Of a stretch of 43,354 bases of DNA, positions 3,074-37,514 are shown piece by piece. Position 1 is the stretch's first letter. Each line of letters starts with the position of its first letter. Origin of the DNA: Klebsiella planticola ATCC 33531 (GTDB taxonomy: Bacteria; Pseudomonadota; Gammaproteobacteria; Enterobacterales; Enterobacteriaceae). The stretch lies in contig NZ_JMPP01000061.1 of the NCBI RefSeq assembly GCF_000735435.1, forward strand, positions 1 through 43,354, given 5' to 3'. The notes under the pieces are model-generated. The model was given only the letters and a program-made list of their open reading frames with translations. It ran no database searches and had not been told where the DNA came from. A program made the translations under genes and the position numbers.

Positions 3074-4120
3074 TTGAACATAGAAACCCGTGAAATTACC
3101 CTGGAGCCAGCGGATAACGCACGCCTGCTGGGGCTGTGTGGCCCGTTTGACGACAACATCAAACAGCTGGAACGCCGATTAGGCATCGAAATTAATCGCC
3201 GTGACAATCACTTTAAACTGACCGGGCGCATGATATGCGTGAACGCGGCAGCCGATATCCTGCGCAGCCTGTACGTCGATACTGCGCCGATGCGCGGACA
3301 GATTCAGGATATTGAACCGGAACAGATTCATCTGGCCATTAAAGAGGCGCGGGTGCTGGAACAAAGCGCCGAGAGCGTGCCGGAGTACGGTAAGGCCGTC
3401 AATATTAAGACCAGGCGTGGCGTGATTAAGCCGCGTACGCCAAACCAGGCGCAGTACATCGCCAACATTCTCGATCATGATATTACCTTCGGCGTCGGCC
3501 CTGCCGGGACCGGGAAAACCTATCTGGCGGTTGCCGCGGCGGTCGACGCGCTCGAACGCCAGGACGTACGCCGTATTCTGCTGACCCGCCCTGCCGTCGA
3601 AGCCGGGGAAAAGCTCGGTTTCCTGCCCGGCGACCTGAGTCAGAAAGTCGATCCGTACCTGCGCCCGCTGTACGATGCGCTGTTCGAAATGCTCGGCTTT
3701 GAGAAGGTCGAGAAGCTGATTGAGCGCAACGTTATCGAAGTCGCACCGCTGGCCTATATGCGCGGCCGTACGCTGAACGATGCGTTTATTATTCTCGATG
3801 AAAGCCAGAACACCACCATCGAACAGATGAAGATGTTCCTGACCCGTATCGGTTTTAACTCAAAAGCGGTGATCACCGGCGACGTCACTCAGATAGACCT
3901 GCCGCGCAGCACCAAATCCGGCCTGCGCCACGCCATTGAGGTGCTGGCGGAAGTTGATGAAATCAGCTTCAATTTCTTCCATAGCGAAGATGTGGTACGC
4001 CACCCGGTGGTAGCTCGCATCGTGAATGCGTATGAAGCGTGGGAAGAAGCTGACCAAAAACGTAAAGCAGAACTGGCCGCCGAGCGCAAACGCGAAGCCC
4101 AGGAACAGGAGCAGAAATGA
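3074..4120 (+). CDS. ybeZ: PhoH-family ATPase YbeZ
   Basis: YbeZ is a cytoplasmic PhoH-like P-loop ATPase of 348 aa that acts with the RNase YbeY in ribosomal RNA metabolism. It shows Walker A GPAGTGKT (residues 142-149) and Walker B FIILDE (about 238-243) followed by SQN, the PhoH arrangement. The start codon is TTG, preceded by AGAGGAAC, and matches the E. coli N-terminus. Its last four bases overlap ybeY (ATGA), indicating translational coupling. The C-terminus is a charged Lys/Glu-rich tail. Gene order ybeZ-ybeY-ybeX-lnt is conserved in enterobacteria. Its exact biochemical role is not settled. Confidence 0.95.
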
Positions 4121-4584
4121 GTCAGGTTATTCTCGATTTACAGCTGGCTTGCGAAGATAACGCGGGGTTGCCGGATGAAGCCCAGTTTCAACGCTGGGTC
4201 GATGCCGTCATTCCTCAGTTCCAGGAGGAGTCAGAAGTGACCGTACGCCTGGTAGACGAAGCCGAAAGCCATGAGCTGAATCTGACCTATCGCGGCAAGG
4301 ATAAGCCGACAAACGTGCTGTCGTTCCCGTTTGAAGCGCCGCCGGGTATCGAACTGCCGCTGCTTGGCGACCTGATCATCTGCCGTCAGGTCGTTGAACA
4401 GGAAGCCAAAGAGCAAGACAAACCGCTGGAAGCGCACTGGGCGCATATGGTGATTCACGGCAGCCTGCACCTGCTGGGCTATGACCATATCATTGATGAA
4501 GAAGCGGAAGAGATGGAAGGCCTCGAAACAGAGATAATGCTTGCTCTGGGCTATGAGGATCCGTACATTGCCGAGAAGGAATAG
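4117..4584 (+). CDS. ybeY: Endoribonuclease YbeY (rRNA maturation factor)
   Basis: YbeY is a small zinc-dependent single-strand endoribonuclease needed for 16S rRNA 3'-end maturation and quality control of 70S ribosomes. The 155-aa protein carries the UPF0054 metal motif [11 protein letters not shown] at residues 114-124, with His114, His118 and His124 as ligands. It overlaps the end of ybeZ by four bases. The reading frame is full length and matches E. coli residue for residue in the active site. Confidence 0.96.
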
Positions 4585-7531: not shown

Positions 7532-8440
7532 ATGCAATTACGTAAACTGGCCACAGCGATGCTGGTCATGGGCATGACCGCCGGTCTGGCGCATGCGGAA
7601 GATGCCGCCCCGGCAGCAGGCAGCACACTGGACAAAATCGCTAAAAACGGCGTTATCGTCGTCGGCCACCGTGAATCCTCCGTACCGTTCTCTTACTACG
7701 ACAATCAACAAAAAGTGGTCGGTTACTCTCAGGACTACTCCAACGCTATCGTTGACGCTATCAAGAAACAGCTGAATAAGCCTGACCTGCAGGTAAAACT
7801 GGTTCCGGTGACCTCGCAAAACCGTATTCCGCTGCTGCAGAACGGGACTTATGACTTCGAGTGCGGCTCCACGACCAATAACCTTGAACGTCAGAAGCAA
7901 GCCGCCTTCTCCGATACCATTTTCGTCGTGGGTACCCGCCTGCTGGTGAAAAAAGGCGGGGCGATTAAAGATTTCCCGGATCTGAAAGACAAAGCGGTTG
8001 TCGTCACTTCCGGTACCACTTCCGAAGTTCTGCTGCATAAGTTGAATGACGAGAAGAAAATGAACATGCGCATTATCAGCGCCAAAGACCACGGCGACTC
8101 CTTCCGTACTCTGGAAAGCGGTCGCGCGGTGGCCTTTATGATGGACGATGCGCTGCTGGCCGGCGAACGCGCGAAAGCGAAGAAACCGGATAACTGGGAG
8201 ATCGTCGGTACGGCACAGTCGAAAGAAGCCTACGGCTGTATGCTGCGTAAAGATGATCCGCAGTTTAAAAAGCTGATTGATGACACCGTCGCCACGGCCC
8301 AGACCTCCGGCGAAGCGGAAAAATGGTTTGATAAATGGTTCAAAAACCCAATTCCGCCAAAAAATCTGAATATGAACTTCGAACTCTCCGACGACATGAA
8401 GACGCTGTTCAAGACCCCTAACGACAAAGCTCTGAACTAA
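7532..8440 (+). CDS. gltI: Glutamate/aspartate periplasmic binding protein GltI
   Basis: GltI is the periplasmic receptor for the GltJKL ABC importer. The first 22 residues form a signal peptide ending in AHA, before EDAAP. The mature part is a family 3 solute-binding protein with a type-II periplasmic fold. The chosen ATG follows AAGGAG and gives 302 aa, exactly as in E. coli. An ATG at 7487 would extend the frame by 15 residues and spoil the signal peptide, so it was rejected. The upstream 406 bp hold the sigma-54 promoter, the NtrC-like site and the GcvB-type element. SroC follows the stop codon. Confidence 0.97.
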   Translation: MQLRKLATAMLVMGMTAGLAHAEDAAPAAGSTLDKIAKNGVIVVGHRESSVPFSYYDNQQKVVGYSQDYSNAIVDAIKKQLNKPDLQVKLVPVTSQNRIPLLQNGTYDFECGSTTNNLERQKQAAFSDTIFVVGTRLLVKKGGAIKDFPDLKDKAVVVTSGTTSEVLLHKLNDEKKMNMRIISAKDHGDSFRTLESGRAVAFMMDDALLAGERAKAKKPDNWEIVGTAQSKEAYGCMLRKDDPQFKKLIDDTVATAQTSGEAEKWFDKWFKNPIPPKNLNMNFELSDDMKTLFKTPNDKALN

Positions 8441-8590
8441 TTAAAAAAACAAGGGGCAGGACACCCTGCCCTCCCGATTGTTGTGACAGCACGGACAGAC
8501 TATACGGTGGCTGGTCGTTCCCCAGCCGCCGCGAATACCGAAACAGGCTGCACAATGATCTTCGAGGGTAGCGATGCTACCCTTTTTTTT
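8438..8590 (+). ncRNA. sroC: SroC small RNA (gltI-gltJ intergenic)
   Basis: In E. coli and Salmonella, SroC is an approximately 150-160-nt RNA cut by RNase E from the gltI-gltJ part of the gltIJKL mRNA. It acts as a sponge for GcvB and triggers its decay. The equivalent spot here has a hairpin (GGGCAGG/CCTGCCC, 8454-8471), an unstructured middle and a strong intrinsic terminator (GGGTAGC, GAT, GCTACCC, then eight T) ending at 8590. The 3' end is well defined. The 5' end is estimated from the known length. Identification rests on position and architecture. Confidence 0.75.
8566..8590 (+). terminator. Intrinsic terminator between gltI and gltJ (SroC 3' end)
   Basis: A perfect 7-bp stem with a three-base loop is followed by eight T residues, 14 bases before the gltJ start. 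It should stop part of the transcription from gltI. This would make the binding protein more abundant than the membrane and ATPase subunits and would define the SroC 3' end. Confidence 0.9.
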
Positions 8591-8603
8591 CCAGGAGTCA
8601 TTT

Positions 8604-11521: not shown

Positions 11522-14104
11522 ATGCAAGAGCAATACCGCCCGGAAGAGATAGAATCGAAAGTCCAGCTTCACTGGGACGATCATCGTACATTTGAAGTAA
11601 CTGAAGACGAGAGCAAAGAGAAGTATTACTGCCTGTCGATGCTTCCTTATCCTTCTGGTCGACTACACATGGGTCACGTGCGTAACTACACCATCGGCGA
11701 CGTCATTGCCCGCTACCAGCGTATGCTCGGCAAAAACGTTCTGCAGCCGATCGGCTGGGATGCGTTTGGTCTGCCGGCGGAAGGCGCCGCGGTAAAAAAT
11801 AACACCGCGCCGGCCCCGTGGACCTACGACAATATTGCCTACATGAAAAACCAGCTGAAAAAGCTGGGCTTTGGCTATGACTGGAGCCGTGAAGTGGCGA
11901 CCTGCACCCCGGAATACTACCGCTGGGAGCAAAAGTTCTTCACCGAGCTGTATAAAAAAGGCCTGGTGTACAAAAAAACGTCTGCGGTGAACTGGTGCCC
12001 TAACGACCAGACCGTTCTCGCCAACGAACAGGTTATTGACGGTTGCTGCTGGCGCTGCGATACCAAAGTTGAGCGTAAAGAAATCCCGCAGTGGTTTATC
12101 AAAATCACCGCCTACGCCGACGAGCTGCTCAACGATCTGGATAAGCTGGATCACTGGCCTGATACCGTTAAGACCATGCAGCGCAACTGGATCGGCCGTT
12201 CTGAAGGGGTAGAAATCTCCTTCAACGTTAACGAGTATGCCGACAAGCTGACCGTCTACACCACCCGTCCGGACACCTTCATGGGCTGTACCTACCTGGC
12301 CGTAGCCGCGGGTCATCCGCTGGCGCAGCAGGCGGCAGCGAACAACCCGGAGCTGGCTGCGTTTATCGACGAATGCCGTAACACCAAAGTCGCCGAAGCA
12401 GAAATGGCGACGATGGAGAAAAAAGGCGTCGATACCGGCTACAAAGCGATTCACCCGCTGACCGGCGAAGAGATTCCGGTCTGGGCGGCAAACTTCGTGC
12501 TGATGGAATACGGCACCGGCGCCGTCATGGCCGTTCCGGGTCACGATCAACGCGACTACGAATTTGCCAGCAAATATGGTCTGAACATTAAGCCGGTTAT
12601 TCTGGCGGCAGACGGCTCAGCACCGGATCTGTCCGAGCAGGCGCTGACTGAAAAAGGCACCCTGTTCAACTCCGGCGAGTTCGACGGCCTGAGCCACGAA
12701 GCGGGCTTCAACGCTATTGCCGACAAACTGGCGGCCATGGGCGTTGGCGAACGCAAAATTAACTATCGCCTTCGCGACTGGGGCGTTTCCCGTCAGCGTT
12801 ACTGGGGCGCACCGATTCCAATGGTCACCCTCGAAGACGGTACCGTCATGCCGACACCGGAAGATCAGCTGCCGGTCATTCTGCCGGAAGATGTGGTCAT
12901 GGACGGCATCACCAGCCCAATCAAGGCCGATCCGGAGTGGGCAAAAACCACCGTTAACGGTCAGCCTGCGCTGCGCGAAACCGACACTTTCGATACCTTT
13001 ATGGAATCCTCCTGGTACTACGCGCGCTATACCTGCCCGCAGTACAATGACGGAATGCTGGATCCAGACGCCGCCAACTACTGGCTGCCGGTCGATATTT
13101 ACATCGGCGGGATCGAACATGCGATTATGCACCTGCTGTACTTCCGCTTCTTCCATAAGCTGATGCGCGACGCGGGTATGGTTAACTCCGACGAGCCGGC
13201 GAAACAGCTGCTGTGCCAGGGGATGGTACTGGCTGACGCCTTCTATTACGTTGGTGAAAACGGCGAGCGCAACTGGGTTTCTCCGGTTGATGCCACCGTG
13301 GAGCGCGATGAAAAAGGCCGTATCGTCAAAGCCTACGATCCGCAGGGTCGCGAGCTGGTGTATACCGGCATGAGCAAAATGTCCAAGTCGAAGAACAACG
13401 GCATCGACCCGCAGGTGATGGTTGAACGCTACGGCGCGGATACCGTTCGTCTGTTCATGATGTTCGCCTCTCCGGCAGATATGACTCTGGAATGGCAGGA
13501 GTCCGGCGTTGAAGGGGCAAACCGCTTCCTGAAACGTGTCTGGAAACTGGTTTATGAGCACACGACTCAGGGCCCGGTTGCCGCACTGGACGTTGCCAGC
13601 CTGAGCGAAGATCAGCAGGCGCTGCGTCGCGATGTGCACAAAACGATCGCCAAAGTGACCGATGATATCGGTCGTCGTCAGACCTTCAACACCGCGATCG
13701 CCGCGATCATGGAGCTGATGAACAAACTGGCGAAAGCGCCGCAGGAAAACGAACAGGATCGCGCGCTGATGCGTGAGGCTCTGCTGGCGGTTGTGCGTAT
13801 GCTCAATCCGTTCACCCCGCACGCCTGCTTCACGCTGTGGCAGGAGCTGGGCGGCGAAGGCGATATCGACAACGCGCCGTGGCCGGTCGCCGATGAAAGC
13901 GCCATGGTTGAAAATACCACCCTGGTTGTTGTTCAGGTTAATGGTAAAGTCCGTGGTAAAATTACCGTTCCGGTCGATGCAACCGAAGAACAGGTTCGTG
14001 CACGTGCGGGTCAGGAACATCTGGTCGCGAAGTATCTCGACGGTGTCACCGTACGTAAAGTGATTTACGTCCCGGGTAAACTGCTCAACCTGGTCGTTGG
14101 CTAA
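11522..14104 (+). CDS. leuS: Leucyl-tRNA synthetase LeuS
   Basis: LeuS charges tRNA-Leu and is essential. The 860-aa class-I synthetase has the HIGH-type motif HMGH (residues 49-52), an inserted CP1 editing domain with the conserved [15 protein letters not shown] segment that hydrolyses mischarged products, the SKMSKSKN loop around residue 620, and the C-terminal leucyl-specific domain. The ATG at 11522 gives exactly the E. coli length. An in-frame start at 11498 would add eight residues and was rejected. It is followed after 14 bp by lptE, a conserved pairing. Confidence 0.98.
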
Positions 14105-28015: not shown

Positions 28016-28029
28016 CGGCAGGCAAAAAA

Positions 28030-28054
28030 AAACCCGCGTTTAGCGGGTTTTTAT
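28030..28054 (+). terminator. Bidirectional terminator between crcB and cspE
   Basis: AAACCCGC and GCGGGTTT enclose a five-base loop. T residues follow on the plus strand and an A run precedes, so the same hairpin serves crcB (plus) and cspE (minus). Confidence 0.9.
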
Positions 28055-28072
28055 ATTCTACTGACGCAATGC

Positions 28073-28282
28073 TTAGATAGCGTTTACGTTTGCAGCAGAA
28101 GGGCCTTTGGCACCGTTAGTGATTTCGAACTCTACGCGCTGACCTTCAGCCAGAGTTTTGAAACCGTTGGACTGGATTGCAGAGAAATGTACGAATACAT
28201 CTTTGCTGCCATCTTCCGGAGTAATGAAACCGAATCCTTTGGATTCATTAAACCACTTAACGTTACCTTTAATCTTAGACAT
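28073..28282 (-). CDS. cspE: Cold-shock-family RNA chaperone CspE
   Basis: CspE is a constitutively expressed CspA-family protein that binds single-stranded RNA and DNA, melts RNA secondary structure and affects transcription antitermination. The 69-aa OB fold carries RNP1 (SKGFGFI) and RNP2 (VFVHF). A longer open frame extends 53 codons upstream, but the ATG preceded by AAGG at position 28282 gives the exact family length and N-terminus. The leader contains a CGACAC/GTGTCG stem-loop (28306-28326) just before the ribosome site. A possible promoter (TTGATG, 18 bp, TATCAG) lies about 30-60 bases upstream. Confidence 0.97.
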
Positions 28283-28444
28283 CAAAATTACCTTTATATG
28301 AAAAAACGACACTGATACTGTGTCGGACACCAGTACATCAATTGTGATGCCTTTTGTCCAGTGCAACTTTATTAAAAAGTGACAAATATCGCTATCTTTT
28401 TTAGGAGGTCGCGCCTTAGTTGTTGTTTTTTCACGGGACAAACG

Positions 28445-32457: not shown

Positions 32458-32592
32458 TTCAGTCTCCTGTACTGGAAGGGTACTACCTGATACCGCTTAA
32501 AAAGGATAAGACAGATTTTTCACTTGCGACGGCAGTATCATAAATTTCATATGTCCCTTTCGGCGATCATCACTTAATGTGCGTTTAATCAC

Positions 32593-32621
32593 TTCAAACC
32601 GCCGACAAGTCTCAGTATGAT
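32593..32621 (+). promoter_or_regulatory. Probable rnk promoter
   Basis: TTCAAA (32593-32598) and TATGAT (32616-32621) are separated by 17 bp. The predicted start is near 32628, which puts the following hairpin at the very 5' end of the mRNA. Confidence 0.55.
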
Positions 32622-32632
32622 GGGACGACATT

Positions 32633-32664
32633 AACCCTTGCCTTTTCGGTGAGGGTTTTCTTTT
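32633..32664 (+). terminator. Attenuator-like hairpin in the rnk leader
   Basis: AACCCTTGCC (32633-32642) and GGTGAGGGTT (32648-32657) pair at all ten positions (two are G-U) around a five-base loop and are followed by TTCTTTTA. The upstream gene is on the other strand, so this is not a gene-end terminator. It lies 34 bases before rnk, within the predicted leader. Confidence 0.65.
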
Positions 32665-32697
32665 ACGGACAGGTTCCTGGATAACACGGAGTATGCG

Positions 32698-35609: not shown

Positions 35610-36173
35610 TTAGATTTTACCGACCAGGTCCAGAGACGGAGCCAGAGTCGCTTCACCTTCTTTCCATTTCGCCGGGCAAACTTCACCTGGGTGAGAAGCA
35701 ACGTACTGAGCAGCTTTGATTTTACGCAGCAGGTCAGATGCGTCGCGGCCGATACCTTCAGCGGTAACTTCGATAGCCTGGATGATACCCTGCGGGTCAA
35801 CAACGAAGGTTGCGCGGTCTGCCAGACCTTCGTCTTCACGCATGTTGTCGAAGTTACGGGTCAGGGCGCCAGTCGGGTCGCCGATCATCGCATATTTGAT
35901 TTTCGCGATAGTGTCAGAGCTGCTGTGCCATGCTTTGTGGGTGAAGTGGGTATCGGTAGAAACGGAGTACACGTCTACGCCCAGTTTCTGCAGTTCTTCG
36001 TAATGGTCTGCAACGTCGCCCAGTTCAGTCGGGCATACGAAGGTGAAGTCTGCCGGATAGAAGAAGAATACGCTCCAACGGCCTTCGGTGTCTTTTTCGG
36101 TAACTTCGATGAATTCACCGTTTTTGAATGCCTGGTTTTTAAAAGGTTTGATTTTAGTGTTAATCAAGGACAT
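35610..36173 (-). CDS. ahpC: Alkyl hydroperoxide reductase peroxiredoxin AhpC
   Basis: AhpC is the main scavenger of low-level hydrogen peroxide and organic hydroperoxides and forms a decamer in the cytoplasm. The 187-aa typical two-Cys peroxiredoxin has the peroxidatic Cys47 in FVCPTE and the resolving Cys166 in GEVCPAKW. It is nearly identical to E. coli. The ribosome site is GGAGGAAG. An OxyR-type site lies 60-97 bp upstream. It forms an operon with ahpF and is divergent from dsbG. Confidence 0.98.
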
Positions 36174-36233
36174 CTATACTTCCTCCGTGTTTTCGTTGAG
36201 GTCTAAGTTAACGAACTTTTCCTGATTCGACCA

Positions 36234-36270
36234 ATGCGTTTGCATTATCAAATCAATAAGCGATATCTAA
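36234..36270 (-). promoter_or_regulatory. OxyR-type site upstream of ahpC
   Basis: Read on the plus strand, four tetrads spaced by seven bases are ATGC, TTAT, ATAA and CTAA. They match the OxyR pattern ATAG-N7-CTAT-N7-ATAG-N7-CTAT at 11 of 16 positions. OxyR activation of ahpC is established in E. coli and Salmonella. Confidence 0.6.
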
Positions 36271-36350
36271 CAACCGGAACAAGACAGCTTTGTGAACCCG
36301 TCGCGACAATCGCCGCGTTTCGTTACTTTTGCATCCCGTGGCGCTGAAAG

Positions 36351-36462
36351 TAAAAAGGCCGCCCTGTTCAGGCGGCCCCGTTACCTGAAATACCCGCAGG
36401 TAGGTTCAGTGCCAGACAAGCTGGCTATGTGTTGCGCTCTACATTACCTTAATGTAACAGCA
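36351..36462 (-). ncRNA. Candidate small RNA between ahpC and dsbG
   Basis: On the minus strand, about 110 nt fold into four consecutive stem-loops with perfect arms: TACATTA/TAATGTA (36440-36456, three-base loop), GCCAG/CTGGC (36411-36425), TACCTG/CAGGTA (36382-36402) and a GC-only 7-bp terminator stem, GGCCGCC/GGCGGCC (36357-36377), followed by UUUUUA. A promoter-like pair lies directly upstream. No protein gene ends at this terminator. I do not recognise a known RNA. The alternative is a distal, attenuated ahpC leader, since ahpC begins 178 bases further on in the same direction. Confidence 0.5.
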
Positions 36463-36468
36463 AGGCCG

Positions 36469-36497
36469 ATTACACCATCCGCAGTATTAAAGGGCAA
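36469..36497 (-). promoter_or_regulatory. Promoter of the candidate small RNA
   Basis: On the minus strand, TTGCCC (36492-36497) and TGTAAT (36469-36474) are separated by exactly 17 bp. The predicted start is near 36461. The dsbG OxyR-type site ends 11 bp upstream of this -35, a distance suited to activation in both directions. Confidence 0.5.
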
Positions 36498-36508
36498 TCC
36501 GCCCGCGA

Positions 36509-36545
36509 GCAGGTCTTACCTATAGCTGTGATAGGCTTCATCATC
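36509..36545 (+). promoter_or_regulatory. OxyR-type site upstream of dsbG
   Basis: The tetrads GCAG, CTAT, ATAG and CATC, each seven bases apart, match the OxyR pattern at 11 of 16 positions, with both central tetrads perfect. A TATACA -10 box lies at 36555-36560. dsbG is an OxyR-regulated gene in E. coli. Confidence 0.6.
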
Positions 36546-36580
36546 TTTTCACCTTATACATTGATTTAAAAGGAATAATC

Positions 36581-37327
36581 ATGTTAAAGCGTCTGTTTTT
36601 TCTGAGTTTTTTACCCTTTTTCTGCCAGGCTGAAGATCTCCCGGCTCCCGTAAAAGCGATAGAAAAACAGGGAATTACCATTATTAAGCCCTTTGAAGCG
36701 CCGGGTGGAGTGAAGGGATGGCTGGGGAAGTATCAGGATATGGGGGTCGCTATCTATCTGACCCCCGACGGCAAGCACGCCATTTCCGGCTATATGTACG
36801 ATGAAAATGGCAATAACCTGAGCGAACAGCTGTTCCAGAAAGAGCTCTATACGCCGGCAGGCCAGGCGATGTGGAAGAAAATGGAGGCCGCCAGCTGGCT
36901 ACAGGAAGGGAAAAAGGAGGCGCCGATCATTCTGTATGTCTTTGCCGATCCCTTCTGCCCGTACTGCCTGCAATTCTGGCAACAGGCGCGTCCGTGGGTA
37001 GAGTCAGGCAAAGTACAGATTCGCACGCTGTTGGTTGGCGTCATCAAACCCGAAAGCCCGGCAACGGCCGCCGCAATTCTCGCCACTCAGGATCCGGCGA
37101 AAACCTGGCGTGATTACGAACAATCCGCCGGTAAAATGCCTATTAAGCTCCCGGCTCATCTCTCCCCGGAAAAAATGAAGATCGTCAGCGAGAATCAGCA
37201 GCTAATGGATGAACTCGGCGCGAACGCAACGCCGGCCATTTACTACATGAACAAAGATAATATGCTGCAGCAGGTGGTCGGGCTGCCTGAAGCCGACAAG
37301 CTGCAGGTCATGATGGGAGAAAAGTAA
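36581..37327 (+). CDS. dsbG: Periplasmic thiol:disulfide protein DsbG
   Basis: DsbG is a DsbC-like dimeric periplasmic protein that keeps single cysteines of certain proteins reduced, protecting them from sulfenylation. It is recycled by DsbD. The 248-aa precursor has a signal peptide (cleaved near residue 17, CQA), an N-terminal dimerisation domain and a thioredoxin fold with the active site CPYC (Cys126, Cys129) and the cis-Pro loop TPAIYYM. The start follows AAGGAATAATC. Linkage with ahpCF and an OxyR-type site place it in the peroxide response. Confidence 0.97.
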
Positions 37328-37347
37328 CCCCTCAGCTCTGCTTTCTG

Positions 37348-37376
37348 GCCAGGTTCCTGAGCAAAAAGAACCTGGC
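37348..37376 (+). terminator. Hairpin after dsbG
   Basis: GCCAGGTTC and GAACCTGGC form a perfect 9-bp stem with an 11-base loop, 20 bases after dsbG. It lacks a uridine run, so efficiency is uncertain. Confidence 0.5.
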
Positions 37377-37514
37377 TTACGCCTCTCCAGTCATATACAT
37401 TCAGTAATGGCGAAGAATAAACGCCAGCATGAATTCACCAAATCAATAATTACAAAAAATAAAATACAAAATATTAATCATTTTTATCACCACGACTTAA
37501 TCCGGACATTAGCC

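Follow-up and report, generated by a model that had tools for sequence, protein, structure and literature searches.

STnc70, a small RNA gene between ahpC and dsbG, lies beside a conserved OxyR-like site from which it may be activated

Two described systems come closest to the locus studied here. One is OxyS (RF00035), a small RNA that leaves an OxyR site and whose gene adjoins oxyR in E. coli; the other is the catalogued small RNA family STnc70 (RF02069). In the literature that we searched, which left aside supplements and most subscription papers, STnc70 was named in one paper only, as a table row, and its accession RF02069 was unprinted, and no work about a small RNA at ahpC-dsbG was found by title or abstract start. 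The row concerns E. coli EDL933, where, in the part of the paper available, STnc70 is placed at 719959 with a length of 94 nt, 47 transcript reads and 141 footprint reads (PMC5331693). For the dsbG-ahpC spacer itself, RpoD holoenzyme was found to bind the E. coli sequence in vitro, and the promoter list built on such binding prints TTGCCC-17-TGTAAT as a constitutive ahpCF promoter (PMC3946193, Table 1, from the sections available). Two sites in the spacer are cited as those by which OxyR activates ahpC and dsbG (PMC6389858, in the passage available), and dsbG was reported as unresponsive to peroxide in the accessible portion of one E. coli RNA-seq study (PMC9026346).

The window analysed here is a 43,354-nt stretch of DNA from Klebsiella planticola ATCC 33531. 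Its interval between ahpC and dsbG had been picked out from the raw sequence in a first-pass annotation as a candidate small RNA gene; that the RNA is catalogued lay beyond the reach of that annotation. The Rfam covariance model RF02069 matched the minus strand at 36345-36439 with 74 bits (cut-off 40), aligned over the whole model (positions 1-149). The interval is the gene for the STnc70 small RNA, so a known family, and both the family match and its conservation support the original claim of a small RNA gene at this place. The gene neighbourhood is that of the E. coli member, with dsbG and ahpC on either side, and the nearest named relative of the window's DsbG is that of Raoultella ornithinolytica (97%), so that the window probably belongs to Raoultella or a close neighbour. 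Also as claimed, no sense-strand protein gene overlaps 36348-36462, and the small plus-strand open frame across it (77 codons, 36292-36525) is antisense to the RNA. A resemblance of the interval to RcsR1 (19.2 bits, cut-off 60) was rejected, and so was a second place for STnc70 in the genome (contig 36, 15216-15243), where the similarity comprised 28 bases of the terminator only. Elsewhere the window holds the sroC small RNA (8436-8596, plus strand; 145.8 bits, cut-off 45), the cspA thermoregulator (28024-28347, minus strand; 121.8 bits, cut-off 78) and the rnk leader (32559-32667, plus strand; 70.3 bits, cut-off 50). The features of the locus are collected in the table.

Table. Features of the STnc70 locus in window coordinates. 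OxyR-like sites were scored at the 20 specified positions of a 37-bp OxyR consensus.
Feature	Coordinates	Strand	Evidence
ahpC	35610..36173	-	TIGR03137, 342.8 bits, cut-off 272 (NCBIfam)
OxyR-like site of ahpC itself	36234..36270	.	13/20, tied second best of the window
STnc70 RNA, about 111 nt (predicted ends)	36352..36462	-	promoter, terminator, RF02069 match
Intrinsic terminator, GC-rich hairpin and five U	36352..36379	-	helix with 96.3% of pair cells standard
Hairpin 3, stem with inner stem	36385..36409	-	two helices with 100% and 96.2% of pair cells standard
Hairpin 2	36411..36425	-	100% of pair cells standard
Unpaired linker GCAACACATA, putative pairing region	36426..36435	-	GCAAC part nearly invariant
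Hairpin 1	36436..36461	-	fold; 89.9% standard pair cells across 41 sequences
Extended -10, TGG-TGTAAT	36469..36477	-	read directly; TGn in 47/47, -10 with 99% mean identity
-35 element TTGCCC of STnc70	36492..36497	-	read directly; 96% mean identity over 47 loci
OxyR-like 37-bp site, common to the STnc70 and dsbG sides	36509..36545	.	14/20
dsbG	36581..37327	+	NF008657, 379.6 bits, cut-off 124 (NCBIfam)

We considered how widely the gene is distributed. RF02069 matched 21 of 60 relatives, including all 20 genomes of the window's genus (its own among them), and 50 of 295 genomes of the family, while a model that includes hairpin 1 (R1) matched 58 of these 295, 46 of them at E values up to 1e-8; searches over more than 40 genomes ran with stricter filters, by which weak members can be lost. 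From the 58 genomes matching R1, loci of 30 and later 20 were examined, the other 8 all having E values of 1.1e-5 or weaker. The comparisons below use 47 distinct loci: of 59 loci collected, 11 were omitted as copies, as a disrupted E. coli locus or for having no STnc70 (L022, L023, L059, L025, L026, L027-L029 and L031-L033), which left 48, of which 47 were distinct. STnc70 lies upstream of ahpC in every examined locus that has it (47 of 47 distinct, 20 of 20 added). Among the omitted loci, that of Serratia inhibens (L031), found through a dsbG relative, had no ahpC match and no STnc70 match, and that of E. coli EPSSH018 (L025) carries an ISApl1-family transposase gene at 3485-4459 between ahpC and dsbG, with the window match still covering STnc70. 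In an order-wide draw, 4 of 148 genomes matched: the window's own, one other of its genus and two from other families. The last two were taken as chance, since their 3-kb loci matched neither ahpC nor dsbG; one of them follows a flagellin-like frame.

The E. coli member is found in the same place in MG1655 (42.7 bits), where the RefSeq features of the dsbG-ahpC stretch do not include STnc70 and oxyS is annotated at its own place. In the EDL933 record, position 719959 is likewise flanked by dsbG and ahpC. The window copy and the Rfam family have sequence, hairpins 2 and 3 and the terminator in common. They differ in that the model of 149 positions has a long hairpin 2, most of which the window copy lacks, and in that the start placed here lies 23 nt earlier, adding hairpin 1. 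The model begins 23 nt behind the promoter-predicted start (36439-36462) and omits this hairpin; either the model is truncated or the RNA undergoes processing. The longer hairpin 2 is present in L034 and L035 (1501-1649), both from one genus, which fill all 149 Rfam positions with 188.9 and 186.2 bits; a third locus of that genus (L036) has the short form, and the Rfam model seems to have been built on the long form.

The minus strand of 36348-36462 folds into four hairpins with a free energy of -47.2 kcal/mol (z -3.78), a value equalled by 1 of 200 shuffles. The first-pass annotation had described four stem-loops with perfect arms; the four hairpins are there, but hairpin 1 has a bulge and a G-U pair and hairpin 3 an internal loop. 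The terminal stem was as described, with a 7-bp GC-only core followed by five U at 36356-36352. We then turned to an alignment of 41 distinct STnc70 sequences (A1), from which four identical RNAs and the two long-hairpin loci L034 and L035 had been dropped. Overall, 95.7% of the pair cells were standard, and sliding the arms against each other cut standard pairing to 37-51%. Cells with compensating changes numbered 21, against 8.3 in shuffles, and none of 500 shuffles reached this number. Two of five covariation measures were not extreme, with pairs changed on both sides reached in 34 and pair types in 87 of 500 shuffles, and the shuffles ignore the relatedness of the 41 sequences. Judged from the alignment, hairpins 2 and 3 and the terminator appear solid. 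Hairpin 1 is kept in most sequences, with a different form in E. coli and misalignment in three rows. Pairing conserved in related genomes, which the first-pass annotation had named as a check on its reading, was found in these 41 sequences, as four hairpins with some covariation.

Between hairpins 1 and 2, the linker sequence GCAAC hardly varies in the alignment, and for this reason it is our candidate for the pairing region; part of the linker is paired in the fold of the E. coli RNA. In the terminator, four T are invariant across the 41 sequences, and terminator-like sites in the surrounding kilobase are at about chance level (2 found, mean 1.0 in shuffles). A short U run of this kind would suit ProQ or weak Hfq binding more readily than a small RNA of the classical Hfq class. 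The name STnc70 is absent from the text of a Salmonella Hfq survey, as far as that text was accessible (PMC2515195).

On the minus strand, TTGCCC (36497-36492) and TGTAAT (36474-36469) can be read directly at 17 bp from each other, as the first-pass annotation had it, and the start of STnc70 is predicted near 36462, at 7 nt behind the -10. A generic promoter scan does not report this promoter because TGTAAT has no A at position 2, where the scan requires one. Consensus scans are weak here, and it is therefore conservation and the family match that carry the case. The pattern TTGNNN-17-T(G/C)TAAT with an extended -10 precedes STnc70 in all 47 distinct loci. This pattern is a relaxation: the original form TTG(C/T)CC-17-TGTAAT fitted 39 of 47 and was widened after the eight exceptions had been viewed. 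Left unchanged, the relaxed pattern fitted 19 of the 20 added loci, L087 being the one without an exact match. The promoter spacer has a mean identity to the window of 57% over the 47 loci at a fixed length. All compared loci are related, so that pattern matches are not independent events. In E. coli MG1655 we located TTGCCC-17-TGTAAT at 638657-638685. The promoter printed for E. coli is identical in these elements and lies likewise in the dsbG-ahpC spacer; it differs in its product, which the available table gives as ahpCF (PMC3946193), whereas the main product here would be a terminated RNA.

OxyR-like sites were scored at the 20 specified positions of a 37-mer which we take to be the OxyR consensus. 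Among all positions of the window, 36509-36545 scored best, confirming the OxyR-type site that the first-pass annotation had noted behind the -35 element, at a distance of 11 bp. All 47 distinct loci have such a site, its end separated from the -35 downstream by 11 bp in 25 loci and by 10 bp in 22; scores are 11-17 of 20 (at least 12 in 46 of 47), and the core CTAT-N7-ATAG is present in 45. The gap between site and -35 has a mean identity to the window of 46% at a fixed length. The same layout recurs in 19 of the 20 added loci, with a gap of 10 (7 loci) or 11 (12 loci). The OxyR-like site of ahpC itself is present in all 47 loci with scores of 11-14, centred 77-79 nt upstream of the start of that gene. 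Scores of 13-14 also arise by chance, as at 13418-13454 of the window, which ties with the ahpC site, and at 1299-1335 of the E. coli stretch. OxyR control had been part of the earlier reading as well; the rigidly conserved arrangement of site and promoter supports it as a prediction from sequence.

The first-pass annotation had also remarked that the layout recalls oxyS without being OxyS. The analogy of layout holds, and RF00035 matched neither anywhere in the window at its cut-off nor within 36000-37500 at E values up to 5. The neighbours of STnc70 are dsbG and ahpC, and it does not diverge from oxyR. In E. coli the site on the STnc70 side scores 16 of 20, equal to the site of oxyS, and the centres lie at about -64 (-65 in the window) and -56, respectively, a difference that would be within about a helical turn. 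The genome has its own OxyS-like match elsewhere (contig 13, 7930-8023), with 36.7 bits below the cut-off of 75. In a search of 21 genomes of this genus, 13 gave an OxyS match and none reached the cut-off, which seems to miss this genus.

The explanation that we favour, with a probability of about 0.68, is that STnc70 is a sigma-70-dependent, OxyR-activated small RNA of about 111 nt that acts in trans. RNA polymerase with sigma-70 would start near 36462 from TTGCCC-17-TGTAAT with its extended -10, and oxidised OxyR bound at 36509-36545, centred about 65 bp upstream of the start, would raise transcription much as at oxyS. The RNA, with its four hairpins, would end at the intrinsic terminator near 36352 and would act in trans, for which base pairing by the linker GCAACAC that joins hairpins 1 and 2 is the likeliest means. 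The printed STnc70 reads from EDL933 (PMC5331693) and the in vitro binding of RpoD holoenzyme to the E. coli spacer (PMC3946193) count in favour of this explanation. For STnc70 we infer the transcript ends, the activation by OxyR, the action in trans, the pairing region, the partner protein and the targets. A search for exact complements of GAGCGCAACAC found four places in the genome besides the gene, none clearly at a gene start, and yielded no target; one of the four lies inside a frame that by eye resembles an aldo/keto reductase. Two printed observations, as far as their sources were available, count against this explanation: the low reads of STnc70 in EDL933, with footprints above transcripts (PMC5331693), and the assignment of the promoter to ahpCF as constitutive (PMC3946193).

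We consider it unlikely that STnc70 is made from an ordinary sigma-70 promoter while the OxyR-like site acts on the divergent dsbG alone. This division would fit the citation of OxyR as activator of dsbG and ahpC via two spacer sites (PMC6389858) and the constitutive entry of the E. coli promoter (PMC3946193), each in the part of the source available. Moreover, the site keeps nearly the same distance from the dsbG start across loci (53-55 in 37 of 39), and may therefore serve dsbG as well or instead. However, 7 of the 47 loci (L002, L011, L015, L018, L048, L052 and L058) showed no dsbG in the flank examined, and all seven keep the OxyR-like site, the promoter with its spacing to the site, and STnc70; 6 of the 20 added loci likewise showed no dsbG within their 2-kb stretch, and in all 6 the gap is 10 or 11. 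The length of the gap to the -35 is fixed while its letters drift, and peroxide left dsbG unchanged in the one RNA-seq study, within its accessible portion (PMC9026346). In six of the seven loci, a frame that looks CitR-like by eye comes next. A distal ahpC promoter with an attenuated leader, in which the terminator halts most transcripts and ahpC is supplied by regulated read-through, had been named in the first-pass annotation as the rival view, and we regard it as distinctly improbable. In its favour are the printed assignment of the promoter to ahpCF in the available table (PMC3946193) and the position of STnc70 upstream of ahpC in every examined locus. It is weakened by the terminator, which is kept while the next 60 nt behind it are on average only 46% identical and variable in length, and by the OxyR-like site that ahpC retains for itself at 77-79 nt. 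The sole alternative pairing spotted by eye, of UUCAGG with CCUGAA in the terminator, is lost in E. coli and in the 149-nt loci. Partial read-through from STnc70 into ahpC may occur.

That the transcript carries a small peptide, or a start-stop that binds ribosomes, and is no base-pairing RNA seems very improbable indeed. The footprints in EDL933 exceed the transcript reads (141 versus 47, ratio 6.5), and a one-codon frame AUG-UAG stands at the same alignment column (A1 column 34), just behind AAGG, in 23 of 41 sequences. On the other hand, the read counts are low in the available part of that study (PMC5331693), the AUG is absent in 16 of 41 sequences, E. coli included, and no start in the 41 sequences opens a frame of conserved length, on which ground we rejected a peptide-coding reading. 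EDL933, which would lack AUG-UAG if like MG1655, still has more footprints than transcript reads in the same table (PMC5331693).

In the literature searched, we did not find the conserved OxyR-promoter layout at STnc70 in print. We lean towards the view that the core Enterobacteriaceae, including E. coli, possess in STnc70 a second small RNA activated by OxyR, overlooked with its promoter booked to ahpCF and its site to dsbG. If the link to OxyR is right, it would explain why the OxyR-like site survives where dsbG is not found, and the printed assignment of the promoter to ahpCF would change. The control of STnc70 can be tested cheaply in E. coli K-12, and, if this view is true, the AhpCF arm of the peroxide response would come under post-transcriptional control as well.
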